A stretch of DNA of 51,548 nt, taken from positions 1 to 51,548 of the forward strand of contig JAQTXJ010000005.1 in the NCBI GenBank assembly GCA_028688815.1, in the 5' to 3' direction. Both the position numbers and the translations under genes were made by a program. Positions within the stretch are counted from its first letter, which is position 1, and each line of letters begins with the position of its first letter. Below the pieces are notes generated by a model. It saw only the letters and a list, made by a program, of their open reading frames with translations, did no database searches and was not told the origin of the DNA. Below are positions 1 through 42,701 of the stretch, piece after piece. This stretch comes from a bacterium (GTDB taxonomy: Bacteria > Hydrothermota > UBA3073 > JACQXS01 > JAQTXJ01).

Positions 1-1
1 G

Positions 2-61
2 AATCGACATTTTGGAAAAAATATGCCAATTAATTTGAATTTGGTAGGGGAGACTTTATGA
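2..61 (+). CDS. Possible 3' end of an upstream gene (partial)
   Basis: The frame starting at base 2 is open and ends in a TGA that overlaps the ATG of the Nudix gene as ATGA, an arrangement typical of translationally coupled operon genes. Only about 19 residues are visible, ending in NLVGETL, so no family can be named. A second frame (from base 1) also closes early, at 31-33, and could equally be the gene end. The coupling geometry is the only reason to prefer this one. Confidence 0.3.
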   Translation, partial: NRHFGKNMPINLNLVGETL

Positions 62-580: not shown

Positions 581-1600
581 TTGATAGCAAAAAATATTAG
601 CGGACAAGCACCGGGAGGAAAAAGAATAAAACTCAAAGAAGTACTTCCTCTGGATACTCCTTTTGTGGTGCAGATATTTCCCGTATATGCTTGCAATTTT
701 AAGTGTAGTTATTGCATTTTTTCAATAGGTAAGGCAAAGCGAGGTTTTATTTCAGATAAGATTAATATGGATTTTGATTTATATAAAAAATGCATAGATG
801 ATATTGCCTTGTTCCCAAATAAATTGAAAGTATTGCGTTTTGTGGGAATAGGAGAACCACTTTTACACAAAAAAATAGTAGATATGGTTGAGTATGCAGT
901 TTCAAAAGATATCACAAATAGAGTGGAAATGTTAACAAATGCGTTGCTGTTAACTCCCAAATTATCGAATTCTCTTATTTCGGCCGGACTCTCAAGATTA
1001 GTTGTGTCTTTACAAGGAACAACAAAAGAAAAATATCAAAAAATATGTGGGGTAAATGTAGATTTTGAGAACCTTATTGAGAACTTAAAATATTTTTTTA
1101 ATAATAAAGGCAATACGCAAGTATATATAAAAATTATAGATTGTGCACTGGATAGTAAAGACGATGAACAAAAATTTTACGAGATATTCGGAGATATTTG
1201 CGATACTATTGCAATTGAGCATGCTGTCCCTATTCATTCCGGCGTTAACTATGAAATTTTGTTAAAAAATAAAGATGCTATGCTTACTCAATTCGGACTA
1301 CCCGTATCGGAAGTTAAAATTTGCCCACAGCCTTTTTTTACATTGCAAATTAATCCGGATGGAAAAGTAGTCCCATGCTATTCTTTTGAATATCCTAACA
1401 TTATAGGCGATTGCAATAATCAATCAATATACGAGATATGGAATGGTAAGCCGTTTCAAAATTTTAGACGCAGGATGCTTGATGGAGCTAAAAGTGTGTG
1501 CGAGGTATGTGCTAATTGCAACATAATTAAGTATAGGCTGTTTCCGGAAGATGTTTTGAATAATGATGTGGAACGACTTAAAAAGCTTTATGAAATTTGA
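581..1600 (+). CDS. Radical SAM/SPASM protein
   Basis: This 339-residue radical SAM enzyme has the cluster-binding motif CNFKCSYC (CxxxCxxC) near residues 38-45 and a GIGEPLL segment matching the GGE-type motif. The C-terminal half carries a SPASM-like cysteine set (CPQPFFTLQINPDGKVVPCY, then CEVCANC), expected to hold one or two auxiliary Fe-S clusters. The start is TTG at 581 behind a good GGAG ribosome-binding site; no ATG fits. SPASM radical SAM enzymes modify peptides, proteins or sugars. No precursor-peptide gene is visible here, and glycosyltransferases and nucleotide-sugar enzymes surround it, so a role in building or decorating a surface glycan is the better guess. The reaction is unknown. 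Confidence 0.85.
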   Translation: MIAKNISGQAPGGKRIKLKEVLPLDTPFVVQIFPVYACNFKCSYCIFSIGKAKRGFISDKINMDFDLYKKCIDDIALFPNKLKVLRFVGIGEPLLHKKIVDMVEYAVSKDITNRVEMLTNALLLTPKLSNSLISAGLSRLVVSLQGTTKEKYQKICGVNVDFENLIENLKYFFNNKGNTQVYIKIIDCALDSKDDEQKFYEIFGDICDTIAIEHAVPIHSGVNYEILLKNKDAMLTQFGLPVSEVKICPQPFFTLQINPDGKVVPCYSFEYPNIIGDCNNQSIYEIWNGKPFQNFRRRMLDGAKSVCEVCANCNIIKYRLFPEDVLNNDVERLKKLYEI

Positions 1601-2375
1601 AAATAGACATAAAATGGGAGGAACTATTTATAAAACAAACAATCAAAAAATTATAAAATTAGGAAATGACAGATTTAAAATAATAAATTTGACAGAACCC
1701 TTAAGAGAAAACGTTGAGGTTTTTCCCGGAGACCCAAAACCTAAAAAAAAGGTATTTTGTTCGTTTGAAAAAGAAAGTTGTCGGCATAATATATACTCAT
1801 TAGGTGATCATAATTTTCATCCACATGGAGACGCTCCCAATCATCAAAATCTTCAATACAAAGATAGAGGTTTTGAATTTTGGAGTCTTGACTTTGTGTT
1901 CAATAAAGCATGCCTGATTGATTTGTCAGAATCAAAGGATTCCGGTAATTTTGATGGGATAAGATATTTGAAGAAAATAAATGGAAAACAGATCTTTCCC
2001 TATATAGATAAAATAGGAAAAAATAGCGCTTTGATATTAAGAACAGGCTATGATAAATGGTTAGAATCAAACAGAAAACATGTCCCTAAGAATATACCGT
2101 ATATTGATAAAAGTGCAATTGATATAATTTCAAAATTTAAGGGACTTAAAGTAATTGGAACGGATAGTTTGACAATTGACAAAATAGGAGAAAATTACGC
2201 ACACAGAAAGTTTAAAGACAAAATGATAGTAGAATGCCTTGTTAATCTTTATAGTATTCCCAAAAAACACAGATATAGTTTTTATTTGCAAACAAGTCCA
2301 ATCGCAATAGTAGGAGCTACAGGTGGTCCTGTTTTGGCATATGCTTATATACAAGTGCACAAAAGACTTTCTTGA
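1590..2375 (+). CDS. Cyclase-family (kynurenine formamidase-like) metal hydrolase
   Basis: The protein belongs to the cyclase/KynB family. It has an early FPGDP segment and the metal-binding signature HPHGDAPNH, equivalent to the family's HxxTHxDxPxH. The family includes bacterial kynurenine formamidases and polyketide or sugar cyclases, so the name does not fix the substrate. The ORF track begins at 1563, overlapping the radical SAM gene by 38 bp. I prefer the internal ATG at 1590 (or 1614) because the first residues look non-family, but no start has a strong Shine-Dalgarno. The C-terminus contains the family-typical SPIAIVGATGGPV segment. It sits tightly between a radical SAM gene and a glycosyltransferase, which suggests a shared pathway. 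Confidence 0.75.
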   Translation: MKFENRHKMGGTIYKTNNQKIIKLGNDRFKIINLTEPLRENVEVFPGDPKPKKKVFCSFEKESCRHNIYSLGDHNFHPHGDAPNHQNLQYKDRGFEFWSLDFVFNKACLIDLSESKDSGNFDGIRYLKKINGKQIFPYIDKIGKNSALILRTGYDKWLESNRKHVPKNIPYIDKSAIDIISKFKGLKVIGTDSLTIDKIGENYAHRKFKDKMIVECLVNLYSIPKKHRYSFYLQTSPIAIVGATGGPVLAYAYIQVHKRLS

Positions 2376-2390
2376 TTAAATGAAACAAAA

Positions 2391-3497
2391 ATGAAAAAAG
2401 TATCGAATGCTCATAAAGTTTTTGCAGACAGGATAAGCGTTATTGTTCCTATATATAATGCTGAGAAATTTCTGAATAAATCTATAGAGAGTGTTATAAA
2501 TCAGAGCTATAAAAACATTGAAATCTTACTTATTAATGACGGTTCTACTGATAGTAGCGAAATAATATGCAATAAGTTTGCTCTTGCAGATAATAGAATC
2601 AAAGTAATCTCGCAAAAAAATAGTGGACCGGCTGCTGCCAGAAATGCTGGGATTCGCTATGCAACAGGCACCCTTGTATTTTTTCTTGATGCAGATGATT
2701 TTATTGAAGAAATTGCCTTGGAAACATTAGTCGAAAAGTATAATCAATACCAACCCGACTTAGTTATGGGAAATTTTAGTAAACTTGAAAATTGTGGTGA
2801 AATTATAAGACAAAACGTTTCATTCTCTTCTGACAATGAACCATTCGAGTGTCAGATTAAAGAATTATCAAAAACAGACATTGTAGCTTATGTAAGGCAT
2901 TTTCTTAAGCATCCGAGTAATCATTTGATTAGTTACTGTTGGGGGAGATTATATAAATTATCAATTATTAAAAATAACGGTATTTTTGCTAATGAAGATA
3001 TGCGTCTTTTTGAAGATTTCGTTTTTAATTTAGACTATTTTAGACATACCAATAAAATCGTATTTGTTAATGAGTCTTTATATACCTACACTATGCATAA
3101 TAATTATATATCTGCTAGTATGACTATTGTCAACGGGGATAGTTTATTGCATGATATGAATGTATTTGAAAATAAGGCAAGTGAATTTCTTCAGCAAACA
3201 AATATCAATGCATTTGATATAAAAAAAGATATTGGGCATGCTCTTATTCATTATGTTATTATTTTTTTTGTTCGTTCTTGTTGGCAAATTAATAGATATA
3301 ATAAAAAAAGGATTTATGACGAGATTGATAAAATTATTAATGCCCCAGTTTTTAAAGATAGTTTGCAGTATTATTCACCGTCAAAGGGTAACAGTAGAAT
3401 TTTGCCTTTATTGGCGAAACTTAAATTAGTTGACTTAATAATACTTGTTTGTAAACATAAGGCTTATAAAAGATATGGAAGGTTGGGGGACGGTTAA
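2391..3497 (+). CDS. Glycosyltransferase family 2
   Basis: This 368-residue GT-A fold enzyme opens with the classic GT2 N-terminus (VIVPIYNAEKFLNKSIESVI, then LLINDGSTD). The metal-binding DxD is in FFLDADDF near residue 100. No transmembrane helices are evident, so it is likely a cytoplasmic, membrane-associated transferase that adds a sugar to a growing lipid-linked oligosaccharide. It begins 15 bp after the cyclase gene and ends 2 bp before the next gene, so all are probably co-transcribed. Donor and acceptor cannot be read from sequence. Confidence 0.88.
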   Translation: MKKVSNAHKVFADRISVIVPIYNAEKFLNKSIESVINQSYKNIEILLINDGSTDSSEIICNKFALADNRIKVISQKNSGPAAARNAGIRYATGTLVFFLDADDFIEEIALETLVEKYNQYQPDLVMGNFSKLENCGEIIRQNVSFSSDNEPFECQIKELSKTDIVAYVRHFLKHPSNHLISYCWGRLYKLSIIKNNGIFANEDMRLFEDFVFNLDYFRHTNKIVFVNESLYTYTMHNNYISASMTIVNGDSLLHDMNVFENKASEFLQQTNINAFDIKKDIGHALIHYVIIFFVRSCWQINRYNKKRIYDEIDKIINAPVFKDSLQYYSPSKGNSRILPLLAKLKLVDLIILVCKHKAYKRYGRLGDG

Positions 3498-3499
3498 AT

Positions 3500-4753
3500 A
3501 TGTCGAAGAAAGATATTATAAAAGAAATCAAAAACAAACAAATGCCGGTTGTAATATATGGAGCCGGTATTGTAGGTGAAACTTTATTAGCTCTCTGTAG
3601 AAATGAGGGAATTACGGTTGAGTGTTTTTGTGATAGTAGTAAAAAAGTAGCTCAATCAAACTTTTGTGGTCTGGAAGTAATCTATTCTCCTGATTTGAAA
3701 ACAAAATATAGAGATGTAATATTTTTAATATCCGTTGCTGCCATAAAAGATGTGGTTGAACGCCTTCATGATCTAGAATATTCAAATTGGTATGCCGGCG
3801 GTTTATTATTAAATGATTTAGATTTTTCTCAAACTCGGTTCGATGCTCCGTTTAATTATGCTAAATATGCAATAGAAACCTGTATTTTATGCCATAAGGC
3901 TTATTTGAATCCGGATAAGCTCTCTATAAGAAGTATTGATATTATTATTACAGAACGTTGCTCTTTAAGGTGTAGGGATTGTTCCAATCTTATGCAGTAT
4001 TACGAAAAACCCGGGAACTGTGACACTGATATGTTGCTAAAGTCTATAGATGCTTTTTGTACGGTCATTGATGAGGTGATTGAATTTCGGATTATTGGCG
4101 GGGAAGCATTTATGAACAAAGAGTGGCATATAATAACCAAGAGATTATTAGACGAACCTAAAGCAAAGAGAGTTGTGGTATATACAAATGGAACCATCGT
4201 ACCAAAAGCCGAATATATCTCTGTTTTAAAGAAAGATAAAGCGCTTGTTAATATTACGGATTACGGTATTTTATCAAGAAAGTTAGTTGAGTTAAAACAA
4301 ATATTGGATAGGAATAATGTTGCTTACTACGTTGTAATGGCATCGGAATGGCTTGATTGTTCAGCAATAATGCTACATAACCGTAACATTGAACAGAAGA
4401 GGAAAATATATAAAAATTGTTGTGCTAAAAATATGCTCACTTTATCGGATGGAAAATTGTATAGATGCCCTTATGCAGCCAACGCTGCCAGGTTATTGGC
4501 AGTCCCGGATAACAAAGATGATTATATTGACTTATTTCAAAAGCCGCTTGATGATGAAACAAATGTTAGCGAAATGAAAGAAAAGGTTAAGGACTACCTT
4601 TTACATAAAGACTATTTAGAAACATGTGACTATTGTAATGGTAGACCATTATCAGGTTCTGAAGTGCAATCTGCTGTGCAGACAGATAAACCGGTAGAGT
4701 ATTACAAATATATTAAAGATAAAAATGTGAATAACGATACTTGTTTGAAATAG
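3500..4753 (+). CDS. Rossmann-like domain fused to a radical SAM domain
   Basis: Two domains are visible in 417 residues. Residues 1-110 form a nucleotide-binding-like unit (PVVIYGAGIVGETLL, a glycine-rich GxGxxG loop, then CFCDSS), resembling the N-terminal domains of nucleotide-sugar-modifying proteins. From about residue 145 a radical SAM domain follows, with ITERCSLRCRDC (CxxxCxxC) and IIGGEAF as the GGE motif. Further cysteines near the C-terminus (KNCCAKN, LYRCPYA, TCDYC) could bind an auxiliary cluster, in the manner of a SPASM or Twitch domain. The gene starts 2 bp after the glycosyltransferase. The fusion suggests that the radical chemistry acts on, or is tied to, a nucleotide or nucleotide-sugar. 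That is inference; no characterised enzyme is recognised. Confidence 0.8.
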   Translation: MSKKDIIKEIKNKQMPVVIYGAGIVGETLLALCRNEGITVECFCDSSKKVAQSNFCGLEVIYSPDLKTKYRDVIFLISVAAIKDVVERLHDLEYSNWYAGGLLLNDLDFSQTRFDAPFNYAKYAIETCILCHKAYLNPDKLSIRSIDIIITERCSLRCRDCSNLMQYYEKPGNCDTDMLLKSIDAFCTVIDEVIEFRIIGGEAFMNKEWHIITKRLLDEPKAKRVVVYTNGTIVPKAEYISVLKKDKALVNITDYGILSRKLVELKQILDRNNVAYYVVMASEWLDCSAIMLHNRNIEQKRKIYKNCCAKNMLTLSDGKLYRCPYAANAARLLAVPDNKDDYIDLFQKPLDDETNVSEMKEKVKDYLLHKDYLETCDYCNGRPLSGSEVQSAVQTDKPVEYYKYIKDKNVNNDTCLK

Positions 4754-4765
4754 TTGTTTTTTATC

Positions 4766-5731
4766 ATGAAAAAATTAAAAATTGCTGTATTAGGTTCCAA
4801 TTCTCACATTGCAAAGGGGTTGATTAACAATTTTCTCCAGAGTGGAGGGTTTGGCTTGCATCTCTATACGAGGTCACCGGACAAAGTTTTCAGTTTTCTT
4901 ACTGCCATAGGAAAATCTACTAAAAAGAACTGTGTTATTCATAAGGGTTATAGGGATTTTTTAAAATTTTCTTATGATGTCGTAATCAATTGTGTCGGAG
5001 TAGGAACTATGAACAGGCCGGGGGACAATTATAGTAATTATTTTTTGGTAACGGAAAAATATGATAATCTGAGTATTAAATATCTGCTTAAAAACCCTGA
5101 TGCCCTTTATATCAGTTTCAGTAGTGGGACTGTTTATGGTAGAGAATTTTCAGCACCTGCAGAAGAAAATACTATAAACAGTATTCGGGTAAACCATATT
5201 ACACCTGAGGATTATTATACCATTGCCAGACTCAATGCTGAAACCAAGCATAGAGCATTTAATGGATTGAAAATCATTGACCTCAGGATTTTCGCCTATT
5301 TTAGCAGATTTATAAACTTGACGGATAGCTATTTTATCATCGAAGTAATGAATTGTATTTTAAATGAGAAAATGTTGATAACGGATAATACAAATATTAT
5401 TCGAGATTATATTCATCCTAAAGACCTTTTCTCAATAATAATGAAATGTGTTGGCGCGGGTAAGATTAATGCAGCGTTTGACGTGAGAAGCGCCAAACCT
5501 GCAGGTAAGAGAGAAATTCTTGATTATTTCTCCTCGGAATATGGTTTAAAATATAGGATAAATAAGTTGTTAAAATATGCCAGCCCGACAGGCTCGAAAA
5601 ACATTTACTGTTCGAACTATAATAATATGGCTTGCATAAGCTATAAGCCAATATTCGGTTCTATGGATACAATTAGAGAAGAATCAAAATATATTATAAA
5701 CCGACAATTTGCTGACAAAAATATGCGCTGA
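4766..5731 (+). CDS. NAD-dependent epimerase/dehydratase (extended SDR)
   Basis: The Rossmann fold starts with IAVLGSNSHIAKGL, an atypical version of the GxxGxxG loop. The catalytic Ser/Thr segment is SSGTVYG. The usual YxxxK is replaced by YTIAR, so the catalytic Lys appears to be Arg; this would weaken or alter catalysis unless another Lys substitutes. The ORF track starts at a TTG (4754), but ATG 4766 gives a normal SDR N-terminus (MKKLKIAVLG). Extended SDRs in such loci make or modify nucleotide sugars. It overlaps the end of the radical SAM fusion gene closely and lies in the same presumed operon. Confidence 0.75.
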   Translation: MKKLKIAVLGSNSHIAKGLINNFLQSGGFGLHLYTRSPDKVFSFLTAIGKSTKKNCVIHKGYRDFLKFSYDVVINCVGVGTMNRPGDNYSNYFLVTEKYDNLSIKYLLKNPDALYISFSSGTVYGREFSAPAEENTINSIRVNHITPEDYYTIARLNAETKHRAFNGLKIIDLRIFAYFSRFINLTDSYFIIEVMNCILNEKMLITDNTNIIRDYIHPKDLFSIIMKCVGAGKINAAFDVRSAKPAGKREILDYFSSEYGLKYRINKLLKYASPTGSKNIYCSNYNNMACISYKPIFGSMDTIREESKYIINRQFADKNMR

Positions 5732-5898
5732 AATATATTCTATAACTTTGAAGCATTCTTAGTAAGTGTAGTTTTCCGATTTTGAGGCAATAACTGCGGA
5801 ACTTTTAAGAAAAAAACTTGTAATGAAAATGAATTATGGGGAAATTGTATTTTATAAAAGTTTTTACATTAAGAAATGAAGGGTAAAAAGAAGGTATA

Positions 5899-6921
5899 AT
5901 GCCACGCTTTTCTTATTATGTTGAAATATCAAAAAAAATACGTCCATTGAAAGTAACGCCTAAGATTTGGAATTACATAAAGTATCGTTTTCTAAAGCGA
6001 AAAACTTTGATGTCCGTGCGGCGGTATACACCCCAGATTGCCTCATTGTTTCTCACTATGCGATGTAACCTAAATTGCGGGTACTGCAATTCGGCAAAAA
6101 TCTTCCGGGAAGGAAAAGTGAACTGGCGTGAAAGTGAAGCAACTCTCGGAAAAGTCAAACGTATTTTTGCAAACCCATTATTCGCGAACTGCATATTTGT
6201 TGATCTGTCTGGAGGAGAACCTCTTTTGGTACAAGATCTGGACCATATTGTTGCTTATCTGGCAAAACGTGGACATACTACGAATGTTATCACTAATGGG
6301 TTACTATTATATGAACGCATTGTGGAGTTGAAACGTGCCGGAGTTTCACGAATTAGTATCCCTCTATATGATGAAAACCTGTCGACTATGAAAAATGAAC
6401 TTGAAAAAATTAATAAAGTTTTTCCCGTGCATACAAGTATTGTGCTATTACGAAGCGCAATAGAAAAAAATTCTGATGAAATTCTTGATACGGCACGTTT
6501 TGTCTATAAATCCGGATGTCTTAGCCTGCGTTTCTTTATGTATAGACCGCTAGGTGTAGATCCGGATACTAAAGAAATAATCACTGATACATATCCTGCC
6601 TATATAGAATTCCGTCGCAGGATGGAAGATGCTTTGCCAGGATTTTGTTTATGGCCGGCGGCGATCAAGACAAGAACAGTTGAAAAACTTTGCCCGCAGT
6701 TGTGGCAACGTATTAGTTGCGATATGTTGGGGAATATGCTAATCTGTTGTGGCACCGATAAGATGCTACAGGGGAAGAATAGTAACCTTTTTCATAGTGA
6801 ACCGGATATTCTTTTTAATCATTCTGCCTTGTTAGATATGCGTAAACAACTTCTATCACCGGGATGTGAAATACCGGATGTCTGTAAAACTTGTAATTTA
6901 TTAGGAGATCCGGGATGGTAG
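5899..6921 (+). CDS. Radical SAM/SPASM-like protein, tandem paralogue A
   Basis: This 340-residue protein carries the radical SAM motif CNLNCGYC (Cys56, Cys60, Cys63) and LSGGEPLL. Near residue 265 a conserved block CPQLWQRISCDMLGNMLICC begins, followed by CKTC close to the C-terminus, which together look like an auxiliary Fe-S binding domain. The start has an AAGAAGG ribosome-binding site. A 168-bp gap separates it from the epimerase gene, longer than other gaps in the cluster, so it may begin a new transcription unit. It is strikingly similar over its whole length to the next gene. Function unknown; the context points to polysaccharide biosynthesis. Confidence 0.83.
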   Translation: MPRFSYYVEISKKIRPLKVTPKIWNYIKYRFLKRKTLMSVRRYTPQIASLFLTMRCNLNCGYCNSAKIFREGKVNWRESEATLGKVKRIFANPLFANCIFVDLSGGEPLLVQDLDHIVAYLAKRGHTTNVITNGLLLYERIVELKRAGVSRISIPLYDENLSTMKNELEKINKVFPVHTSIVLLRSAIEKNSDEILDTARFVYKSGCLSLRFFMYRPLGVDPDTKEIITDTYPAYIEFRRRMEDALPGFCLWPAAIKTRTVEKLCPQLWQRISCDMLGNMLICCGTDKMLQGKNSNLFHSEPDILFNHSALLDMRKQLLSPGCEIPDVCKTCNLLGDPGW

Positions 6922-6938
6922 CCGGATTATAAAATAAT

Positions 6939-7994
6939 ATGGCGGGAGAACTTAAAAAAAGTAAAACTTGGATGTCGAACTTTTCATTATATATTGAGAT
7001 GTCAAAAAAAATACACTCCTTACAAACGGCACCTAAAGTTTGGAATTATATAAAATATCGTTGTCTAAAAAGGAATACGGTGATGTCTGTACGACGATAT
7101 ACGCCACAAATTGGTGCACTCTTGCTAACTTCGCGATGTAATCTCAATTGTGGATATTGTGGAGCGGCAAAAATCCTCAGGGAAACTAATGGTAAATTGT
7201 TAAATAACGATGCCAATCTTGAGAAGGTCCAACGTATTTTCACTAATCCATTATTTGCAAATTGCTTGTTGGTTGAATTGCAAGGGGGAGAACCATTATT
7301 GGTTGAAGACTTGGACCGTATTGTTGCGTATCTTGCAAGACGGGGACATATTACCAACATAATTACGAATGGGGTACTTCTTGCTGACCGTATTTTTGAT
7401 TTGAAAAATGCTGGAGTTTCACGGATAGAAGTTTCCCTCTATAATGAAAATCAAGCAGTTATGGAACGGGACCTTGTGAAAATTAACCAAACCTTTCCCG
7501 TTAATACAAGCATTATGTTGTTAAAAAGTACAGTAGAAAAAATGCCTGACAAGCTTATGGAAACTGTACATTTTGTTCATGATGCCGGATGTCGTGGTTT
7601 GAATTTCTTGATGTATCGCCCACTAGGTTTAAATCCAAAACGGGAAGAGATAATTAAGAATACCGATCCTGCCTACTTGGAATTCCACCGTAGAGTGGAA
7701 GAGGTTTTACCCGGATTTTGTTCATGGCATTCAACAGTCAATTCCGGAACAGTAAAAAAACTTTGTCCACAATTATGGCAGCGTATAATGTGTGATATGT
7801 TAGGAAACATAATAATTTGTTGTGGTATAGGGGAAGTATTAAAAGGACCAAATAGTAATTTATTTAAAACTGAACCGGATATCGTACTTAATCATCCAAT
7901 GCTTGTAAATATGAGAAAACAACTTATGAATACAAAATGTAATCCCCCGGATATTTGTAAAATCTGCAATCTATTGGGAGATTCCGGTTGGTAA
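6939..7994 (+). CDS. Radical SAM/SPASM-like protein, tandem paralogue B
   Basis: This 351-residue paralogue of the preceding gene lies 17 bp downstream. The shared core includes RRYTPQI, CNLNCGYC, QGGEPLL (SGGEPLL in A), the CPQLWQRIMCDMLGN block and the C-terminal CKICNLLGDSGW. The N-terminus is about 11 residues longer than paralogue A; the internal Met12 (at 6972) aligns with Met1 of A and may be the real start. The two copies have diverged by many scattered substitutions, so the duplication is old and both copies appear to have been kept under selection. This suggests related but non-identical substrates, or a heterodimer. Confidence 0.82.
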   Translation: MAGELKKSKTWMSNFSLYIEMSKKIHSLQTAPKVWNYIKYRCLKRNTVMSVRRYTPQIGALLLTSRCNLNCGYCGAAKILRETNGKLLNNDANLEKVQRIFTNPLFANCLLVELQGGEPLLVEDLDRIVAYLARRGHITNIITNGVLLADRIFDLKNAGVSRIEVSLYNENQAVMERDLVKINQTFPVNTSIMLLKSTVEKMPDKLMETVHFVHDAGCRGLNFLMYRPLGLNPKREEIIKNTDPAYLEFHRRVEEVLPGFCSWHSTVNSGTVKKLCPQLWQRIMCDMLGNIIICCGIGEVLKGPNSNLFKTEPDIVLNHPMLVNMRKQLMNTKCNPPDICKICNLLGDSGW

Positions 7995-8053
7995 GAGAAC
8001 TATACTAAGGCTTTTTGTGGAAACTATCATATAATAACTATGTAAGCTTTATA

Positions 8054-8082
8054 TTGACAAAATAGAAGATAACCTGTAAATG
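8054..8082 (+). promoter_or_regulatory. Possible promoter of the membrane glycosyltransferase gene
   Basis: TTGACA, 17 bp, TAAATG. The -35 is perfect but the -10 matches consensus at only three positions. It lies in the 117-bp gap before the glycosyltransferase ATG at 8112. Confidence 0.3.
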
Positions 8083-8111
8083 TAAATTTGGTTGTTCTAT
8101 TTATAAGACAT

Positions 8112-9068
8112 ATGAAAAAAATTTCAGTCATTACTCCTTGTTACAATGAAGAAGAAACCATTAGAGATGTTTATGAAAAAATTAAGGAGATCTTTATCGC
8201 CTTGAAAGATACTTATGAGTACGAGCATATATTTATGGATAATTGTAGTACCGATAAAACTCTTCCCATTCTAAAAGAGCTTGCCAAGGATAACAAGAGA
8301 GTAAAGATTTTGTCTTATTCCAAAAACTTTGGGTCTGTGAAAAGCGGAATAGTTGGTTATACCTATGCTAGTGGTGATGCTGTAGTTAGTTTCGAAGCTA
8401 ATTTTAAAGACCCTCCAGAATTAATTAATACTTTTATAAATTACTGGGAAAAAGGATTTGATGTAGTTTATGGTATAAGAAAAAAAACTGGGGATAAATT
8501 TTTTATGCGTTCTATGCGCAGGTTCTTTTATTGGTTTTGTAACCTTTTATCCCGGGAAAATCTACCTTTGAATGTAGGAAGCTTTTGCTTATTAGATCGG
8601 AAAGTAGTTAATGAATTAATTAAGTTAGACGACCACAAACCATATACGCGGGGGATAATAGCGTCCATTGGTTTCCAGCAGATTGGAGTTGAATACGTAA
8701 GAGGAAAAAGGCCTAAAGGAAAATCTAAAAGTGATATGGCTTACCTTATTGATTTAGCCATTAATGCTATTATTAGTTATTCTATTAAACCAATTAGGTT
8801 TTGCACTTTTATAGGAATGGGGTTGGCAGGATTAAGTTTCTTGACCGCAATAGTATATTTTATTCTCAAATTATTCTTTTGGCATGCGCAGATTCCTGCT
8901 GTATCTGCCTTGATTATGGCGGTTCTGTTTTTTGCGGGAATTCAACTTTTTTTCCTTGGAATAATAGGCGAATATGTTGGCGCGATTCATTCTCAAGTAC
9001 GTAAAAAACCTTATGTTGTAATCAAAGAAAAGATTAATTTTGATGATGTAAACGATCATAATGAGTGA
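8112..9068 (+). CDS. Membrane-bound family 2 glycosyltransferase (GtrB/ArnC-like)
   Basis: The GT2 catalytic domain begins ISVITPCYNEEETIRDVYEK. It is followed by two long hydrophobic helices (residues ~230-300, with FIGMGLAGLSFLTAIVYFIL and the FFAGIQLFFLGIIGEYVGAI segment), the classic layout of polyprenyl-phosphate glycosyltransferases such as GtrB and ArnC. These load one sugar onto undecaprenyl phosphate for later transfer on the outer face of the membrane. Where the usual DxD is expected the sequence reads FEANFKDPPE, so the metal site is shifted or degenerate. The ORF track begins at a TTG (8088); ATG 8112 matches family N-termini. The stop lies just past the next gene's start (overlap 8 bp), indicating coupling to rfbH. 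Confidence 0.85.
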   Translation: MKKISVITPCYNEEETIRDVYEKIKEIFIALKDTYEYEHIFMDNCSTDKTLPILKELAKDNKRVKILSYSKNFGSVKSGIVGYTYASGDAVVSFEANFKDPPELINTFINYWEKGFDVVYGIRKKTGDKFFMRSMRRFFYWFCNLLSRENLPLNVGSFCLLDRKVVNELIKLDDHKPYTRGIIASIGFQQIGVEYVRGKRPKGKSKSDMAYLIDLAINAIISYSIKPIRFCTFIGMGLAGLSFLTAIVYFILKLFFWHAQIPAVSALIMAVLFFAGIQLFFLGIIGEYVGAIHSQVRKKPYVVIKEKINFDDVNDHNE

Positions 9069-10371
9069 GAAAAAACTTAGACAAGAGATTTTTGATAAGG
9101 TTGAAAAATTACACAAATTAAAAAGTCCGGAAAAATTTGTTCCCGGAAAAACAAGAATTAATTATGCTGGAAGAGTTTATGACGAAAAAGAAATAGTTAA
9201 TCTGATAGATGCTTCTCTTGATTTCTGGCTTACAGCAGGAAGATATGCATCAACATTTGAGAAAAATTTTGCACAATTTTTAGGATTAAAATATTGCCTT
9301 CTGACTAATTCCGGTTCCTCGGCTAATCTTTTGGCGGTTTCTGCTTTAACTTCTCCTAAATTAGGCAAGAGGAGATTAAAATCTGGCGATGAAGTTATCA
9401 CTACTGCCTGTGGATTTCCTACGACACTAAATCCAATTATTCAGAATAATCTTATCCCGGTTTTTATTGATGTAGATTTAGAAACATATAACATTAAAGT
9501 AAATCAGATTGAAAAGGCAATAACAAAAAAAACTAAAGCAATATTTGTTGCCCATACATTGGGTAATACGTCTAATCTTGATGAAATTATGGAAATAGTA
9601 AAAAAATATAATTTATGGTTTATTGAAGATAATTGTGATGCTTTAGGTACGAAATTTAAAAATAAATATACCGGAACATTTGGGCATATATCAACTTGTA
9701 GTTTTTATCCTGCTCATCATATTACAATGGGAGAAGGAGGCGCGGTCTTAACGAATGACCCATTATTGAAGAAAATAATTGTCTCTTTAAGGGATTGGGG
9801 GAGAGATTGTTGCTGTGAACCCGGAAATGATAATACTTGTGAAAAAAGATTTGACTGGCAATTTGGAAAACTGCCGGTCGGGTATGACCACAAATATGTT
9901 TATTCACACATAGGATATAATTTTAAAATTACGGATATGCAAGCATCCATAGGGCTAGCCCAGCTAAAAAAATTGCCTTCTTTTATTGAAATAAGAAAAA
10001 AGAATTTCAATTTTCTTTCCGAAAAATTAAAAAAATATGAAAAATATTTTTTTCTCCCACAAGTAACAAAAAATTCTGAGCCCAGTTGGTTTGGTTTCCC
10101 TATCCTAATAAAAGAAGATGCCCCATTTTCAAGAGCGGATATTGTCAAATATCTGGAAAAATATAAGATTGCTACAAGAATGCTTTTCGGTGGGAATTTG
10201 ATCAAACAACCTGCTTATGAAGAGATAAAATATAGAGTCGTTGGTTCACTAAAAAATACAGATGTAGTAATGAATAATCTTTTTTGGATTGGTGTATATC
10301 CAGGGATGACAGAAGAAAAATTAGAGTATATAATAAAAATATTCACCCAATACTCACATTTGGTTAGATAA
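9061..10371 (+). CDS. rfbH: CDP-4-keto-6-deoxyglucose 3-dehydratase (RfbH/DdhC/E1-type)
   Basis: This 436-residue DegT/DnrJ/EryC1-fold protein has a diagnostic substitution. The PLP-Lys of aminotransferases is replaced by His in SFYPAHHITMGEGGAV, as in E1, which uses PMP and a [2Fe-2S] cluster to remove the C3 hydroxyl of CDP-6-deoxy-4-keto-glucose. The cluster cysteines are in the segment DCCCEPGNDNTC. The product is the precursor of 3,6-dideoxyhexoses such as abequose, paratose and tyvelose. The partner genes for CDP-glucose formation (rfbF, rfbG) and the E3 reductase are not in this window; they may lie upstream of base 1. The gene overlaps the membrane glycosyltransferase by 8 bp, which suggests that transferase may handle the dideoxy sugar. 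Confidence 0.9.
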   Translation: MSEKKLRQEIFDKVEKLHKLKSPEKFVPGKTRINYAGRVYDEKEIVNLIDASLDFWLTAGRYASTFEKNFAQFLGLKYCLLTNSGSSANLLAVSALTSPKLGKRRLKSGDEVITTACGFPTTLNPIIQNNLIPVFIDVDLETYNIKVNQIEKAITKKTKAIFVAHTLGNTSNLDEIMEIVKKYNLWFIEDNCDALGTKFKNKYTGTFGHISTCSFYPAHHITMGEGGAVLTNDPLLKKIIVSLRDWGRDCCCEPGNDNTCEKRFDWQFGKLPVGYDHKYVYSHIGYNFKITDMQASIGLAQLKKLPSFIEIRKKNFNFLSEKLKKYEKYFFLPQVTKNSEPSWFGFPILIKEDAPFSRADIVKYLEKYKIATRMLFGGNLIKQPAYEEIKYRVVGSLKNTDVVMNNLFWIGVYPGMTEEKLEYIIKIFTQYSHLVR

Positions 10372-10455: not shown

Positions 10456-11334
10456 ATGAAAAACTTTTTTTGGGCATTACTTTTTTTGTCTGTACCGCTT
10501 AAAGCTGAATATGTTCCAATTGGTGATAGCGGAACATTATCATTAAATAAACCTTTTTGTGGTTCTTGAAACTTTAACATAAGGTACCAGGTTCTGGTAC
10601 TTAAAAATGAAATGCCGGCAGATTCATTGAAAATAAATCAAATAGCTATATTTTGTAATGATTCTAACTACCTTAATGCAAGTTTTTACAATTTTAATCT
10701 CTACGCTGTTCACACTTCTTTGTCGGAATTGACGACATCTTTTGATAGTAACTATGTCGATACGCCTTTTTTAGTTATGCATAGAGATACTTTAGCTTTT
10801 CAATGTGCTTACAATCAATGGACAGCGTTGCCATTTGACAGCATCTTTAAGTATAACAAAACGGATAATCTTATATTTGAAATTCAATGGAACGGTTCCG
10901 ATGCAGGTTCAGTTTATAGCCGTGCATTTGTTACGGATGTGCCTAGAGTTCTAGATGGCTACATAGGTTTTCCAACCGGGACATTGCACTCTTCTATGAA
11001 TAGTTTGCAGATTTACTACTCAACCTATGGAGTAGAGGAAAAATCGAAGAGCATTGCCTCCAATAAAAAATTGTATAATTATCCTAACCCTGTTATAAAC
11101 TCAACGGAAATTAATTATGAACTTCCATATAACACAGAGGTGAATATTACAATCTATAATCTGTCAGGACAAAAAATAACAACGCTTGTATCCGAATACA
11201 AAAAAGCAGGTTGTTATACTGTGAAATGGAATGGGAAAGATAATCATAATAACAAAGTAAATACAGGAACTTATTTTTATACTCTTAAAACCAACGACTA
11301 TAGGATATCCAACAAGCTAACTATACTGAAATAA
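10456..11334 (+). pseudogene. Secreted protein with FlgD/T9SS-type C-terminal tail, interrupted by one in-frame TGA
   Basis: The ATG at 10456 follows a good Shine-Dalgarno and encodes a signal peptide (MKNFFWALLFLSVPLKAEYV). After 37 codons the frame meets TGA at 10567-10569. It then stays open in the same frame to 11334; the ORF track lists only the part from 10612. Residues either side of the stop read FCGS-stop-NFNIRYQV, so a TGG (Trp) to TGA change would explain it. The C-terminal ~85 residues (YPNPV, then VNITIYNLSGQKITTLV, ending SNKLTILK) are a FlgD-like/type A sorting tail used for type IX secretion or cell-surface anchoring. The middle is unrecognised. It could be a true pseudogene, a sequencing error, or rare readthrough. 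TGA ends other genes here, so general recoding is unlikely. Confidence 0.7.
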
Positions 11335-11397: not shown

Positions 11398-13122
11398 TTA
11401 TTCTTGCCAATTTATCACGATCCACCGTTGTTCGGTCCCGTCATATAAAAGAGTTACGCTACCTGAACCGTTGGTGGTTATGTCTGTATCTCTTAATGTA
11501 TATATTCCATTGACCGAATTTATTCCACTATTATTCTTGATTGTCATATTTTGATTAGTGGAATTATATATTATAATTACTTTATTTGCAGCTATAGGGG
11601 CAAAGCCATTAATTGAAAAAGGTTGAGTAGGCCCGGATATTCTAAAATAAGTTTTATCTGATAATATTATATCATTATTATTTTCATTTGATAGTAAAAG
11701 TTCTTCATTAGATAATATTAAATTATTATTTGTAATCAGATTACCATTTACTTTTACATTTCCTGCAAAATATCCTGCATAGTTCTTGCTCGTCGTTGAT
11801 GTGCTACAAAATAAGGCAATGCTGTCTGAAATAAAATGTCCACCATATGCTACTCCACCTGTTGAAACTGTGCAACTTGATGTTGCTTTTACTCCATAAA
11901 TATTTGTTTTTCCCATTCCTGATGCTCTAATATTTATTCCATATCCATTTTGGTTTTCTACGGATGTATCATAACTCATTGTAAATATTCCGGCAGACAT
12001 AGTACCAGTTGACAAACCAGTCGCCTCTCCTTTTATTGCACATTTTGACCCGCGCCCAGAATTGTTCCCAGTTCCAATTTGAAATAATCCACCATACTGA
12101 TAACCATTCCCTTTATTGTATGATTGACCTAATACGCCTACTGTGGTTAAATCTCCTACCTTGCCATTTCGTAAGTCTGCCCAACCACGTATGCCCTTTA
12201 CCGGGCCACCGTAAATTGAATCACTTGTGTAGGAAATCATGCCTGCCTCAAATGCCTGACAGGGAGCTGTATGTCCCCAAAGTTCTCCCCATACGCTACC
12301 TGCTTGATAGTCTTGAACCGGAGTTCCGTCCGGCAATGTGTCAAATCCATTATAAGATACCACAATCCCCAATCCTTCCCATCCACTCGTTCTGTTATTA
12401 ACGGGATCTAACTTGATTCTAAGTGCTGAATTTATTCCTTGTGGAATACTGTCAGGGTTAGGTGCTATATATTGATGCCAATTATTAGTATCGGGTCTAT
12501 CAATTCGCCAAAAATATGGGCTGGTTGAGTCCATAAGTACATAAGTTGAACGGATAAACGCATATTTAACGGTATCTGCATAAGTTGAATGCTCTGCTCT
12601 CATTGCATAAGGGATGCTTACTAATTTTTTTCTCGGCGATAATATCTGGCTGTCTATCTGTGTTTCAACCCACAAAGGATTGCCTATAAATATAGATGTG
12701 GGAATGGGATTGATACTACCAAGTAAAACATTGAATGCTCCTTTAACAACTGGTACACTTGTTTGAGTCTCATTCCATAAAACATTTCCTGTAGTAGAAT
12801 CATTGTATATACTAAATTTCATACTGAAATTTCCCATAATGTCTAAACCTGATGTGTCATTTTTTTTCTCAAGATACCCCTGATAATTTATTTCTTGAGG
12901 AATTGTCTGCACTGATTTATTTATGAACGTGAGGGGTGTTGTTTTATCTAAAAGTTTGTTGGGAATCTTCTGATTTTGATTTATGGCTTTTGCTTGTATT
13001 TCAAAAGCTAGTGTGTTCATTAAAATACTAATTATAATCCATCTCATATTATCTATTAAGGCATAGTGTAAAACACAAGAGTGTTTAAGCTTGATATATA
13101 ATTTGTCAATACTTTTTTTCAT
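11398..13122 (-). CDS. Large secreted surface protein with tail-fibre-like body
   Basis: This 574-residue protein has a hydrophobic signal-like segment beginning at Met26 (MRWIIISILMNTLAFEIQAKA), so the true start may be Met26 (13047); the first 25 residues would be unusual ahead of a signal peptide. Residues ~75-185 form a module familiar in surface proteins of FCB-type and WOR-3 genomes: PQEINYQGYL, then FSMKFSIYND, VKGAFNVLLGS and RKKLVSIPYAMRAEHS. The C-terminal half is rich in Gly, Asn, Ser and Thr with short beta-strand repeats, like carbohydrate-binding or tail-fibre proteins. It runs opposite to both neighbours. An adhesive or structural surface role is inferred; no enzyme motif is seen. 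Confidence 0.72.
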   Translation of the reverse strand: MKKSIDKLYIKLKHSCVLHYALIDNMRWIIISILMNTLAFEIQAKAINQNQKIPNKLLDKTTPLTFINKSVQTIPQEINYQGYLEKKNDTSGLDIMGNFSMKFSIYNDSTTGNVLWNETQTSVPVVKGAFNVLLGSINPIPTSIFIGNPLWVETQIDSQILSPRKKLVSIPYAMRAEHSTYADTVKYAFIRSTYVLMDSTSPYFWRIDRPDTNNWHQYIAPNPDSIPQGINSALRIKLDPVNNRTSGWEGLGIVVSYNGFDTLPDGTPVQDYQAGSVWGELWGHTAPCQAFEAGMISYTSDSIYGGPVKGIRGWADLRNGKVGDLTTVGVLGQSYNKGNGYQYGGLFQIGTGNNSGRGSKCAIKGEATGLSTGTMSAGIFTMSYDTSVENQNGYGINIRASGMGKTNIYGVKATSSCTVSTGGVAYGGHFISDSIALFCSTSTTSKNYAGYFAGNVKVNGNLITNNNLILSNEELLLSNENNNDIILSDKTYFRISGPTQPFSINGFAPIAANKVIIIYNSTNQNMTIKNNSGINSVNGIYTLRDTDITTNGSGSVTLLYDGTEQRWIVINWQE

Positions 13123-14727: not shown

Positions 14728-17700
14728 TTAAGCAGATATGTCTATTGTCTTATCTTCTTTCTTTACGCATAAACTGAATTCTCCAGGGAGATTTAATACA
14801 TTCATTATAGATTTTAATAAGTACGTTTTACTATGAATGTTCTTAAATATTGAAATTGCTTCCGAATAACATTCAAAAGCTTCTTTTATTTTATTTAGTT
14901 CGTGAAATATACACCCCATAAGGAATACGCTCCTGCCTTTTGCTTTATCTTTATGTGATTTTTGGGATAACTCAAATGCTTCTGTCAAATGTTTTAATGC
15001 ACACTCGTAATCACTTCTTGCCCTGTGTAATTCGCCAAGGATTAAACAACTTTCTATTAAAAGAGCGGTGTCATCTATTTCTCTGTATAAATTATTTGCT
15101 TCGGTTAAGTAAGACAATGCATCACTTTTATTATCTCGTATAATACAAAATAATCCCCTGTTGAAAGTCGTCATTGCTTTCCATTCTTTTTCTTCTTTGG
15201 ATTTTTTATCCAGCTCGGAAATCAATTTTTCATAGGATTCATAATCTTTCATTAAGAAATAAGTAATTATAATATTATTATAAATAGTAATTATTTCATT
15301 TTTATCGGTTATTGATTTTAATACCTTTTCATAGTATTTCACGGCATCTTTATAACCATAAATAAGCCTTGCTTCATCACCTGCCCATAAGTTATAACTT
15401 GCTCCTTTTGAAGAATCCTCGGATAATTCAAGGTGATATGCGATATCCCATAAAAATTCTTCCATCTTTTCGCTATAGTATATTTCTAGCCATTCACCTA
15501 TTTTTCTGTGCAATTCAGACGAGTTTTCTACTTTGCTTTTAAGAAGTTCGTAAATTTCATTATATGTAAATCTATATTTATTATTAATAACTAATTTAAT
15601 TAGCCCAAGCTCAAGTCCCTTATCAATTATGTGGGAAAGATACCCCTCATTCTTACCGGTAAACAGAGTTAAAAAACTTATATCAAATTCGTTTCCAAGT
15701 AAAGCGGCGGTGGATAATATACTTTCTTCGTTCTTGTCCAGTTGGGTTATTTTATTTTCAAATATTTCTTTTACGGATTCAAAAGGTGTTTCTTCGTTTA
15801 TTAAGCTGTTAAGAGCTTCCTGTAATACAAATGGATTCCCTTTGGAAAGATTTTTGGCTTTTTCCAATATTGGAGCCGGTGGCACAACAGATTGTGAAAA
15901 AATTATCGAAATCATTGCATCCATATCTTTTTCAGATAAAGGATTAATTTGAATTTCCGGCATTTCTTTCCATACTTTAGAAAAACATTTTTCAATCTCG
16001 TTTTTATCCGTTATGTGTAGCCCCGAAGTACAGCATATTATTCCCTTGAAATTTTGAGAATGTTGAGCAAGATAAAAAATTAATTCAAAAGTAGATTTAT
16101 CTGCATCCTGAATATCTTCTATTATAAACAAAACAGGAGCTTCATTGGAAATCGTGTTGAGGGATGAAACTATTTTATTAAAAAACTCTATTCGTTCTTC
16201 ATCACAGATATTACATAAAATCGAGTTGCTATATTTCAAAGAAATAGGTGAATAATCTAGAAATATATCATAATTGGTAAATTCTAAATCTGTTTTTTTA
16301 TATTGATCCCAGAAAGGTAATAAAGATTTAATCTGGGCAAACAAGGCTGTTATTTCTGTCGAAAGCGTTTCATTCTTTTCTATATATTGTCTGAAAAATT
16401 GTTTAAATGGAGCATAAGGTGAGATAGGGGTGTTGCAATGTGTAATAAATGTCTGGTATCCTTTAAATTTTAATCGATCTGAAAATTCACTTAAGATTCT
16501 CGTTTTCCCTATGCCGGTTGCACCCGAAACAAAAACTACCTTCTTCCCAACGGCGAAAGCCTTTTGTAAATCTTCAAGCGTTTTTTCCTGCCCGATGAGT
16601 TGGGAACAGCTAATGGAACTACGTTTCTTAATGCTGATCTTGCTATACCCTTGCTCTAATAATGTCCTAGAGTTAGCAGCATCTGTGGGATACAGCGAGA
16701 CTTCTGTTTTTATGCTTACAGGAACTTTAGATTCGAAGTCAAATTTTTCTACGAGGTTTTTAAGGTTTTCTTGCTTCTCTTCCTTGTCTTTTTCTGCTAA
16801 ACTTGGAGAAAGTATGGTAAAAGCATCTCCGTTGTAGCGGAATAGAGTTTCTTTCTCTGCTAAATTCTCTTTTAGTAAATCTGCCATCTGGCATAATATC
16901 TTATCGCCAAGAGGTTCTCCAAACTTTTCATTTATTGTGCGGAAATGGGCAATATCAAGAAAAATAACTCCAAATGTGCGATTCTCTTGTTCGGCATTTA
17001 ATATTTCTTCCTCACAAAATTCCATAAGCGCATCACGGTCATAAAGTTGGGTGAGGCTATCTATTGACTTCCGGACAGGTTCACTTTTAATACTCGTTTC
17101 TATTGTAGATATATCAGCAGTAGAATTTTTAGTAATTTCCTCCGGGATTTTTATATCTTCTTTAGAAATTTCTCCTTTAACAAGCTTAATTGCATTACTT
17201 AGATAATTCTCCAATATAGGACTTTCTATATTTTCTGTTTTTATGCTGCTATCCGGTAAAGATGAGGCTGTTTCGCATTGAAATGGACCAAAGTTCTTCG
17301 CCTGCTCTATGCCTTCCTGAAGATATAACTCCTTTAATTCATTTATAACGGGCTCACTATTAGGAAACTTTTCGTTTATATATTCGTAGGTCTTGATTAC
17401 TTCTTCAAGGTTGTTTCTTCTGCGCATACGGTTGGCATAGTCAACAAAGTTTTCAATGGCTTCACTTTTTAATTTAAGTTGAGAATAAAGAATCCCAAGA
17501 ATGTAATATGTTTCTTCGGCATCGGGATTTATCCTTAAAATCTTTTTGGATATTGCTACAGCGTTATTATATAAAAAATCTTTTGTATAAATCTCCCTTG
17601 CTTTTTTATAGGAATTTATCGCATCATCTGTTAATTTCATCATTTTATAAATATCTCCGATAATATTATAAAAATTGGGATTGTTGGGTTCATCCTGGAT

Positions 17701-17790
17701 AAGAACCTGGTACTCTTGAAGTGCCTCGGAATACTTATATTCTTTCAAAAGGTCTTTTGCTTTTTGCTCTCTTATTTTCGTTGATTTCAT
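14728..17790 (-). CDS. TPR, degenerate GGDEF, AAA ATPase and TPR regulatory protein
   Basis: The 1020 residues read in order as follows. N-terminal TPR-like helices (1-150) lead to a GGDEF-type domain (~245-390, with DSLTQLYDRDAL and FLDIAHFRTINEKFGEPLGD). Next is an AAA-type ATPase module with Walker A VFVSGATGIGKTRILSEF and Walker B-like PVLFIIEDIQDAD. TPR repeats then fill most of the last 250 residues. The GGDEF signature itself reads NGDAF, so the glutamate needed for diguanylate cyclase activity is Ala; the domain is probably a nucleotide sensor or structural. The second half resembles STAND-type or adenylate-cyclase-associated ATPases, which act as signal hubs. No DNA-binding domain is obvious. 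A strong promoter lies immediately upstream, giving a near-leaderless start. Confidence 0.8.
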   Translation of the reverse strand: MKSTKIREQKAKDLLKEYKYSEALQEYQVLIQDEPNNPNFYNIIGDIYKMMKLTDDAINSYKKAREIYTKDFLYNNAVAISKKILRINPDAEETYYILGILYSQLKLKSEAIENFVDYANRMRRRNNLEEVIKTYEYINEKFPNSEPVINELKELYLQEGIEQAKNFGPFQCETASSLPDSSIKTENIESPILENYLSNAIKLVKGEISKEDIKIPEEITKNSTADISTIETSIKSEPVRKSIDSLTQLYDRDALMEFCEEEILNAEQENRTFGVIFLDIAHFRTINEKFGEPLGDKILCQMADLLKENLAEKETLFRYNGDAFTILSPSLAEKDKEEKQENLKNLVEKFDFESKVPVSIKTEVSLYPTDAANSRTLLEQGYSKISIKKRSSISCSQLIGQEKTLEDLQKAFAVGKKVVFVSGATGIGKTRILSEFSDRLKFKGYQTFITHCNTPISPYAPFKQFFRQYIEKNETLSTEITALFAQIKSLLPFWDQYKKTDLEFTNYDIFLDYSPISLKYSNSILCNICDEERIEFFNKIVSSLNTISNEAPVLFIIEDIQDADKSTFELIFYLAQHSQNFKGIICCTSGLHITDKNEIEKCFSKVWKEMPEIQINPLSEKDMDAMISIIFSQSVVPPAPILEKAKNLSKGNPFVLQEALNSLINEETPFESVKEIFENKITQLDKNEESILSTAALLGNEFDISFLTLFTGKNEGYLSHIIDKGLELGLIKLVINNKYRFTYNEIYELLKSKVENSSELHRKIGEWLEIYYSEKMEEFLWDIAYHLELSEDSSKGASYNLWAGDEARLIYGYKDAVKYYEKVLKSITDKNEIITIYNNIIITYFLMKDYESYEKLISELDKKSKEEKEWKAMTTFNRGLFCIIRDNKSDALSYLTEANNLYREIDDTALLIESCLILGELHRARSDYECALKHLTEAFELSQKSHKDKAKGRSVFLMGCIFHELNKIKEAFECYSEAISIFKNIHSKTYLLKSIMNVLNLPGEFSLCVKKEDKTIDISA

Positions 17791-40688: not shown

Positions 40689-40712
40689 TAAAATTGTACT
40701 TGAGGAGGCAAT

Positions 40713-41132
40713 ATGACACTGGATTTGAGCAGTTTACAAAAAGCAGTTAGTTCTCTTGAGCGGGCAATAAAAGTTGCTTCTTCTCAAATTACAGGAGAAG
40801 TTGATACAGATTATGAAGAGGTTATTCGTGCCGGTGTCATTCAGAGTTTTGAGTTTACCTACGAGGTATGTTGGAAATTTATGAAACGATGGCTGGAAAA
40901 TAATTTTGGTAATGACACTGTTGATGGGTTATCCAAAAAAGAATTATTCAGAGTTGCTGCCGAAAGTCAACTTATAAAAGACGTTGAAGTTTGGATAGGG
41001 TACCACGAAGCAAGAAATAAGACCTCGCATATTTATGATGAAGATAAGGCTAAAGATGTATATGATGCGGCAGTCCAATTCATAAATGAAGCAAAAGATT
41101 TACTTGAAGTCTTAAAAGCTAAAAATGATTGA
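40713..41132 (+). CDS. HepT-type HEPN protein (nucleotidyltransferase partner)
   Basis: This 139-residue all-helical protein of the HI0074/HepT group starts LSSLQKAVSSLERAIKVA. It carries the HEPN RNase motif RX4HXY as RNKTSHIY (Arg101, His106, Tyr108). In the characterised HepT/MntA system, HepT is an RNase toxin and MntA neutralises it by adding AMP to this Tyr. Here the toxin-like gene lies inside a type I restriction operon and overlaps the next gene by 8 bp, so the two are translationally coupled. All catalytic residues are intact, so it is probably active unless modified. Confidence 0.88.
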   Translation: MTLDLSSLQKAVSSLERAIKVASSQITGEVDTDYEEVIRAGVIQSFEFTYEVCWKFMKRWLENNFGNDTVDGLSKKELFRVAAESQLIKDVEVWIGYHEARNKTSHIYDEDKAKDVYDAAVQFINEAKDLLEVLKAKND

Positions 41133-42699: not shown

Positions 42700-42701
42700 A
42701 A

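Follow-up and report, generated by a model that had tools for sequence, protein, structure and literature searches.

A radical SAM-rich glycan locus that may build a C-branched deoxysugar, with relatives across bacterial phyla

This study concerns a cluster of radical S-adenosylmethionine (SAM) enzyme genes at one end of a 51,548-nucleotide contig from a bacterium of the Hydrothermota (JAQTXJ010000005.1, assembly GCA_028688815.1). The contig, called C19 and analysed over its whole length as the window, belongs to a 2.67 Mb draft genome of 157 contigs that is 92% complete. What the window covers is just the right half of a larger locus. The left half, which lies outside it, points to a specific glycan component: a C-branched cytidine diphosphate (CDP) sugar, predicted to be made by a thiamine diphosphate (ThDP) enzyme. 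We think it rather likely that this horizontally mobile locus produces a deoxysugar that is C-branched and edited by radical enzymes, and that the sugar is then passed to a lipid carrier for use in glycosylating the cell surface.

Gene content of the locus

A preliminary description, made from the DNA letters alone, had placed four radical SAM genes at 581-7994 among genes for glycan synthesis. All four are intact open reading frames (ORFs) scoring above the PF04055 cut-off, and the CX3CX2C motif is invariant within this domain in each, as expected of the radical SAM superfamily. The glycan partners it had named were likewise all found: two family 2 glycosyltransferases (GT2), an epimerase of the short-chain dehydrogenase/reductase (SDR) type, a Nudix protein resembling GDP-mannose mannosyl hydrolase (GDPMH), and RfbH, with the Nudix gene, the second GT2 and RfbH lying outside 581-7994. 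One cluster member had been passed over, the PF04199 gene at 1563-2375. The features are as follows.

1-33, plus strand: tentative C-terminal tail (ESTFWKKYAN, then stop) of a B12-binding radical SAM gene, truncated by the contig edge
58-555, plus strand: Nudix hydrolase, GDPMH-like (PF00293)
581-1600, plus strand: rSAM1, BtrN-like radical SAM protein with a one-cluster C-terminal (twitch/SPASM) domain, 339 aa, TTG start (PF04055, PF13186)
1563-2375, plus strand: PF04199 "cyclase", a metal hydrolase of the kynurenine formamidase type (E 1e-11)
2391-3497, plus strand: GT2 glycosyltransferase (PF00535, E 1e-37)
3500-4753, plus strand: rSAM2, N-terminal Rossmann-like domain and SpeY-like twitch radical SAM, 417 aa (PF04055)
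4754-5731, plus strand: SDR-type NAD-dependent epimerase/dehydratase (PF01370)
5899-6921, plus strand: rSAM3, twitch-type radical SAM, 340 aa (PF04055)
6939-7994, plus strand: rSAM4, tandem duplicate of rSAM3 (62% identity), 351 aa (PF04055)
8088-9068, plus strand: PgfS/ArnC-type GT2, probable polyprenyl-phosphate sugar transferase (NCBIfam PgfS 228 bits, below the cut-off of 500)
9061-10371, plus strand: RfbH, CDP-4-keto-6-deoxyglucose 3-dehydrase (NF011936, 735 bits against a cut-off of 423)

Would four such genes gather by chance? With 38 radical SAM matches genome-wide, 0.11 are expected in 7.4 kb, and the probability of at least four is 5e-6, or 2e-4 when duplicates are counted once. The conserved synteny is stronger evidence for the clustering than this calculation. 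The first GT2 (2391-3497) has counterparts that adjoin rSAM2 in loci L031 and L034 as well (57-58% identity), the SDR epimerase is kept in L030, L031, L032 and L034 (53-77%), and rSAM3 has orthologues in a sister genome (68%), in L033 (54%) and in the Omnitrophota loci L135 and L144 (58-61%). The PgfS/ArnC-type GT2 is 88% identical in the sister locus and recurs in other loci. The PF04199 protein, for its part, has no relative in the PDB, and its gene is not present in the sister-genome locus.

The left half of the locus

The sister genome, from the same genus, carries the locus on one contig (JAQUPX010000005.1), in the order RfbF, RfbG, NeuB-cupin, HAD, ThDP enzyme, methyltransferase, rSAM3, rSAM5, Nudix, SGNH-like protein, rSAM1, epimerase, GT2 and RfbH. 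The rSAM3/rSAM4 pair of the window is a single copy there, and downstream of RfbH the gene content matches that of the window. The window's own genome has the ThDP gene (86% identity to the sister copy) on another contig, C119, whose right end encodes RfbF, a small ORF, RfbG, NeuB-cupin, HAD, the ThDP enzyme and three further radical SAM proteins: rSAM5, rSAM6 (B12-binding and radical SAM domains) and rSAM7 (Rossmann and radical SAM domains, truncated by the contig end). The small ORF (147 aa; L023:6950-7393) resembles a four-helix-bundle or intervening-sequence protein and is not in the sister genome.

The two contigs have no common words of at least 17 bases near their ends, so that the linkage of the two halves in this genome is taken from the sister genome. 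The short peptide encoded at the very start of the window resembles the C-termini of rSAM6 homologues (SEFWKDYEKRF, SSFWRNYAKQF, SGFWKAYAKQF); the match is short and tentative. In L135 and L136, rSAM6 is directly followed by Nudix and rSAM1. Together with this tail, the C119 genes suggest about seven radical SAM genes in the whole locus, perhaps eight. Two more lie at the edge of a third contig, C47 (L026:3-1967), where one of them is truncated, and one of them is like the B12-binding rSAM6 (28%); they may belong to the same or to another multi-radical SAM locus. C47 was considered as a bridge between C119 and C19, and this could not be shown.

Motifs and nearest structures of the radical SAM proteins

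Extra cysteine sets near the C-terminus had been noticed in at least three of the four window proteins; a conserved set beyond CX3CX2C is present in all of them. In rSAM1, C38/C42/C45 and C248, C266, C310 and C313 are invariant in 32 homologues. The corresponding C-terminal residues of rSAM2 are C308, C323, C376 and C379, and those of rSAM3/4 are C265, C274, C283, C284, C329 and C332, invariant in four sequences. A SPASM domain was taken to be a C-terminal domain with two auxiliary clusters and a seven-cysteine pattern. The Pfam model for it, PF13186, is reached by rSAM1 only, and rSAM1 and rSAM2 each have four conserved C-terminal cysteines, enough for one auxiliary cluster. The cysteine spacing fits a one-cluster twitch better than a complete SPASM domain, and twitch is the preferable name. 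None of the four proteins exceeds an NCBIfam cut-off among the matches listed, maturase models included, and they are therefore without a curated name.

What do they resemble? For rSAM1, BtrN is the best PDB match by sequence, and it is also first (E 1e-14) in the fold ranking of an AlphaFold model with a mean confidence score (pLDDT) of 91.5, followed by BlsE and DesII. DesII and BlsE perform radical chemistry on a nucleoside diphosphate (NDP) sugar or a sugar nucleoside. The best PDB match of rSAM2 is 7wzv (E 5e-4 as a single sequence, 4e-10 as a family profile), identical in sequence to 7wzx, which was deposited as the twitch radical SAM dehydrogenase SpeY. A BtrN/SpeY-type twitch fold with one auxiliary cluster is thus predicted for rSAM1 from its modelled fold and for rSAM2 from its profile. 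The reaction that defines this type would be the oxidation of a secondary alcohol at the cost of one SAM per turnover.

The PDB matches of rSAM3/4, 8wm2 and MoaA, are uninformative, and the rSAM3 model, built on an alignment of four sequences, has a pLDDT of 51, too poor for a fold search. The matches of rSAM5 are MoaA and then BlsE. As for rSAM6, its best solved relative is AprD4, and it scores 91 bits against the AprD4 cut-off of 500.

Related loci and their spread

A seven-sequence alignment was used to search some 85,000 species genomes for relatives of rSAM1, and the gene content of their loci was read with tblastn and a codon-biased gene caller. The close relatives (59-78%) come from a deltaproteobacterial metagenome-assembled genome (MAG; placed in the Myxococcota in the tree), two Omnitrophota, a Wolfebacteria MAG and a cultured betaproteobacterium, Pseudothauera nasutitermitis. 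All of their loci (L031-L035) have rSAM1 together with rSAM5, RfbH, NeuB-cupin and the ThDP enzyme, and RfbF and RfbG wherever the contig is long enough. Nudix, rSAM2, rSAM3 and rSAM6 are often present, and gene order varies. In Pseudothauera, RfbF-RfbG-RfbH-NeuB-cupin-ThDP follows directly after a flagellin gene (L118:221-1702), about 20 kb before rSAM1, which suggests that the sugar may decorate flagellin there.

A search with rSAM5 in 384 genomes of the Omnitrophota group gave 14 matches. Ten newly examined Omnitrophota loci (at least 43% identity) join L032 and L033 to make twelve; the ThDP gene is present in nine of the ten, and the tenth, truncated by a contig end, has RfbG and RfbH. In the rSAM1 tree, the module forms a nine-row clade with 99/99 support in which Omnitrophota, Wolfebacteria, Pseudomonadota, Myxococcota and the group of the window are intermixed, and this mixing of phyla argues for horizontal transfer. 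At 28-43% identity the family extends further, to Brachyspira, Clostridia, Prochlorococcus, Chlorobi and Rhizobiales among others; no rSAM1 homologue was found in phages.

For a wider test, as the preliminary description had proposed, 37 loci of the rSAM1 family from at least eight phyla were compared with 28 other radical SAM loci of similar length, counting RfbF/RfbG/RfbH, rfbC, glycosyltransferase, SDR and NeuB as glycan reference genes. At least one such gene is present in 27 of the 37, against 2 of the 28 controls (Fisher 6e-8), and an RfbF homologue in 16 against none (Fisher 2e-5). Within two genes on each side, the commonest Pfam families around the rSAM1 family are FkbM methyltransferases, other radical SAM proteins, group 1 glycosyltransferases and NDP-sugar dehydratases; the control genes have MoaC, MoeA and other unrelated families. 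The contrary expectation, that homologues would stand consistently beside peptide precursors, was checked over the same 37 loci, and the glycan context prevailed.

RfbH, the Nudix protein and the ThDP enzyme

An E1 3-dehydrase is marked by a histidine in place of the lysine that binds pyridoxal phosphate and by a four-cysteine [2Fe-2S] motif. The window protein has this histidine in PAHHITMGEGG and Cys 192, 250, 252 and 260 in the spacing C-X57-C-X-C-X7-C. By motif and by equivalog score alike, it is predicted to be RfbH. The Nudix profile finds GDPMH as its best solved match (E 2e-8); both proteins deviate from the Nudix box in two places, which coincide.

Against the PDB, the ThDP enzyme ranks JanthE ahead of all entries (391 bits), and 5ahk next (289), which we take to be the YerE homologue of Pseudomonas protegens. 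Against the acetolactate synthase model TIGR00118 it scores 395 bits, under the cut-off of 538. JanthE, the entry 8rph, is a YerE-like enzyme (PMC12188165), and the ThDP protein, on C119 as well as in L012, has the family features of a YerE-like carboligase, for which cross-coupling of a 2-keto acid with a ketone, here a keto-sugar, is predicted. Its acceptor would be at hand, because RfbF, RfbG and RfbH are encoded. Within this family, YerE uses pyruvate, and ErwE is reported to couple a hydroxylated 2-keto acid to CDP-4-keto-3,6-dideoxyglucose to give erwiniose (PMC12247030). As a separate observation, no acetolactate-synthase-like protein besides the ThDP enzyme (L023:10626-12455) turned up in the 92%-complete genome (E at most 1e-10), and the organism is possibly auxotrophic for branched-chain amino acids.

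A possible pathway and its alternatives

Gene content, synteny, families, conserved ligands and spread across phyla are directly established. From them we infer the substrates, all of the reactions, the order of the steps, and the action of the radical SAM enzymes on a nucleotide- rather than a lipid-linked sugar. In this scheme, RfbF and RfbG would yield CDP-4-keto-6-deoxyglucose, and RfbH would take off the 3-OH to give CDP-4-keto-3,6-dideoxyglucose. NeuB-cupin would condense phosphoenolpyruvate (PEP) with an aldose, possibly freed from an NDP-sugar by the Nudix protein and dephosphorylated by the HAD protein, to form a hydroxylated 2-keto acid. The YerE/ErwE-like ThDP enzyme would then decarboxylate this acid and join the remainder to the C-4 ketone. 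It is because the acceptor enzymes, a carboligase of the ErwE group and a PEP-condensing NeuB-cupin are all encoded that a branched, higher-carbon CDP-sugar is proposed as the product. The radical enzymes would follow: hydroxyl dehydrogenation or a related hydrogen abstraction of the BtrN/SpeY type by rSAM1 and rSAM2, C-methylation or AprD4-like dehydration by the B12 enzyme rSAM6, and further radical steps on the sugar by rSAM3/4 and rSAM5. Finally, the PgfS/ArnC-type GT2 would load the sugar onto polyprenyl phosphate.

The NeuB-derived donor is the weakest step of this pathway. If it holds, the union of a NeuB keto acid and a CDP-3,6-dideoxyhexose by the ThDP enzyme would give a new class of monosaccharide, a branched sugar of about 10-14 carbons, then oxidised, deoxygenated, epimerised or methylated by up to seven radical SAM enzymes. 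Such a carbohydrate pathway would be exceptionally rich in radical SAM enzymes, and mobile across bacterial phyla; we offer this as a tentative, even doubtful, extension. The surface polysaccharide of the preliminary description is, for its part, a putative destination, since no Wzx or Wzy was identified in the window locus, and the Pseudothauera locus adjoins flagellin.

Several observations weigh against a radical-edited branched sugar. The Competibacteraceae locus L036 combines rSAM1 with RfbF/G/H, and the ThDP relative, encoded elsewhere, is just 31% identical; a branched product is therefore not a necessary substrate of rSAM1. In the rSAM1 fold ranking, the peptide maturase SuiB comes just under the sugar enzymes, and the TM-scores are moderate (0.5-0.6). 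The Nudix protein scores 37.7 bits against an NCBIfam GDPMH cut-off of 146, and RfbG is under its NCBIfam cut-off too. The usual partner of RfbH is an RfbI-type reductase; a genome-wide FAD_binding_6 search (92% completeness) revealed no RfbI/AscD-type protein, the sole protein with this domain being apparently a hydrogenase-type subunit. This lowers confidence in the RfbH step; the definition of RfbH by sequence does not depend on the reductase. Furthermore, the halves of the locus are on separate contigs in the window's own genome, their linkage resting on the sister genome, and no assayed enzyme is known from the locus or a close relative.

Could one locus make two products? The ThDP enzyme would then form an ordinary yersiniose-type sugar from pyruvate, the donor of YerE itself (PMC12247030), while NeuB, HAD and Nudix would supply an independent nonulosonic acid, the radical SAM enzymes serving one or both. 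The NeuB-like protein does belong to the nonulosonate synthase superfamily. Nevertheless, NeuB-cupin and the ThDP enzyme co-occur in most loci, some YerE-like enzymes are known to take long, hydroxylated keto acids as donors, and no CMP-nonulosonate synthetase is among the genes examined, a genome-wide search not having been made. We hold this division of labour to be possible, if unlikely.

Or do the radical SAM enzymes modify an assembled or lipid-linked glycan, or its peptide or protein carrier such as flagellin, in place of a nucleotide sugar? The conserved PgfS/ArnC-type GT2, the flagellin gene beside the Pseudothauera locus and SuiB among the fold matches would all agree with it. However, the nearest folds are those of small-molecule sugar and cyclitol enzymes, the neighbours are sugar-nucleotide genes, and the gaps hold no precursor ORF; we regard it as improbable. 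The absence of a precursor peptide, also remarked upon in the preliminary description, is borne out by the fact that no plus-strand ORF of at least 20 aa lies wholly within the gaps 5732-5898 or 7995-8087.

That the four enzymes mature ribosomal or other peptides and sit in a glycan locus by chance is very improbable and largely refuted: it is in peptide maturases that cysteine sets of the SPASM type are most frequent, and several of the weak NCBIfam matches are to maturases, but no maturase cut-off is reached among the matches listed, the gaps hold no precursor, and the glycan context (27/37 against 2/28) speaks for sugars. Mere coincidence of the clustering was rejected on this same context and on the chance probability of 5e-6. 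The suggestion that radical chemistry acts here on sugars and not on peptides is consequently supported by gene context and by predicted fold.

Other features of the window

Beyond the locus, 10612-11334 encodes a protein whose C-terminal end resembles a sorting signal of the FlgD/type IX secretion kind, and 11398-13122 a repetitive surface-type protein; both are kept in the sister genome. So is the 1020-aa fusion of GGDEF, AAA ATPase and TPR domains at 14728-17790. A Type I restriction-modification locus occupies 39105-45797, with HsdM at 39105-40688, more ORFs at 40713-42699 and an HsdR-like gene at 42702-45797.

Comparison with known systems

The closest parallels are the YerE/ErwE pathways to yersiniose A and erwiniose, which share the supply of CDP-4-keto-3,6-dideoxyglucose by RfbF/RfbG/RfbH-type enzymes and a YerE-like ThDP carboligase; here, in contrast, NeuB-cupin, HAD, a GDPMH-like Nudix protein and up to about seven radical SAM enzymes are linked to them.

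With regard to the radical enzymes, BtrN and SpeY, the twitch dehydrogenases of aminocyclitol antibiotics, are the solved enzymes that rSAM1 and rSAM2 match best, and share with them CX3CX2C and one C-terminal [4Fe-4S] ligand set. They differ in their antibiotic rather than surface-glycan context, in the additional N-terminal Rossmann-like domain of rSAM2, and in sequence, BtrN being about 21% identical to rSAM1 in the fold alignment. DesII and BlsE, third and second among the rSAM1 folds, are 14-17% identical and are known from single antibiotic pathways. AprD4, the radical SAM diol dehydratase of apramycin, is the nearest solved relative of rSAM6 on C119, which differs from it by a B12-binding domain.

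The rfb locus on plasmid pBHWA1 of Brachyspira hyodysenteriae also has about seven radical SAM genes, several of them rSAM1 homologues (34-38%), beside rfbF, rfbC, an epimerase and glycosyltransferases, whereas the 17 kb inspected there showed no rSAM5, NeuB-cupin, YerE-like ThDP enzyme or RfbH. As this block was described in 2014 (PMC4267127), radical SAM-rich rfb loci as such have a precedent. A link between YerE-type enzymes and radical SAM proteins, or an account of this module, was not found in the literature searched, from which subscription journals were mostly absent.

Each part, therefore, has a known relative, in YerE-type branching, in radical SAM sugar enzymes or in radical SAM-rich rfb loci; it is their combination, its conservation and its spread that were not found described there. 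The probable product of this mobile cluster, common to unrelated bacteria, is an unusual surface sugar with a branch, which an exceptional number of radical enzymes would then reshape. Radical SAM genes of glycan loci usually go unnamed, and by tying several families of them to a ThDP-branched CDP-3,6-dideoxyhexose context the module makes their substrates testable. Cultured Pseudothauera nasutitermitis is an organism from which the glycan can be isolated. The spread of the module suggests that the surface sugars of poorly known phyla, such as the Omnitrophota and those of the Candidate Phyla Radiation, may include structures outside the present catalogues.

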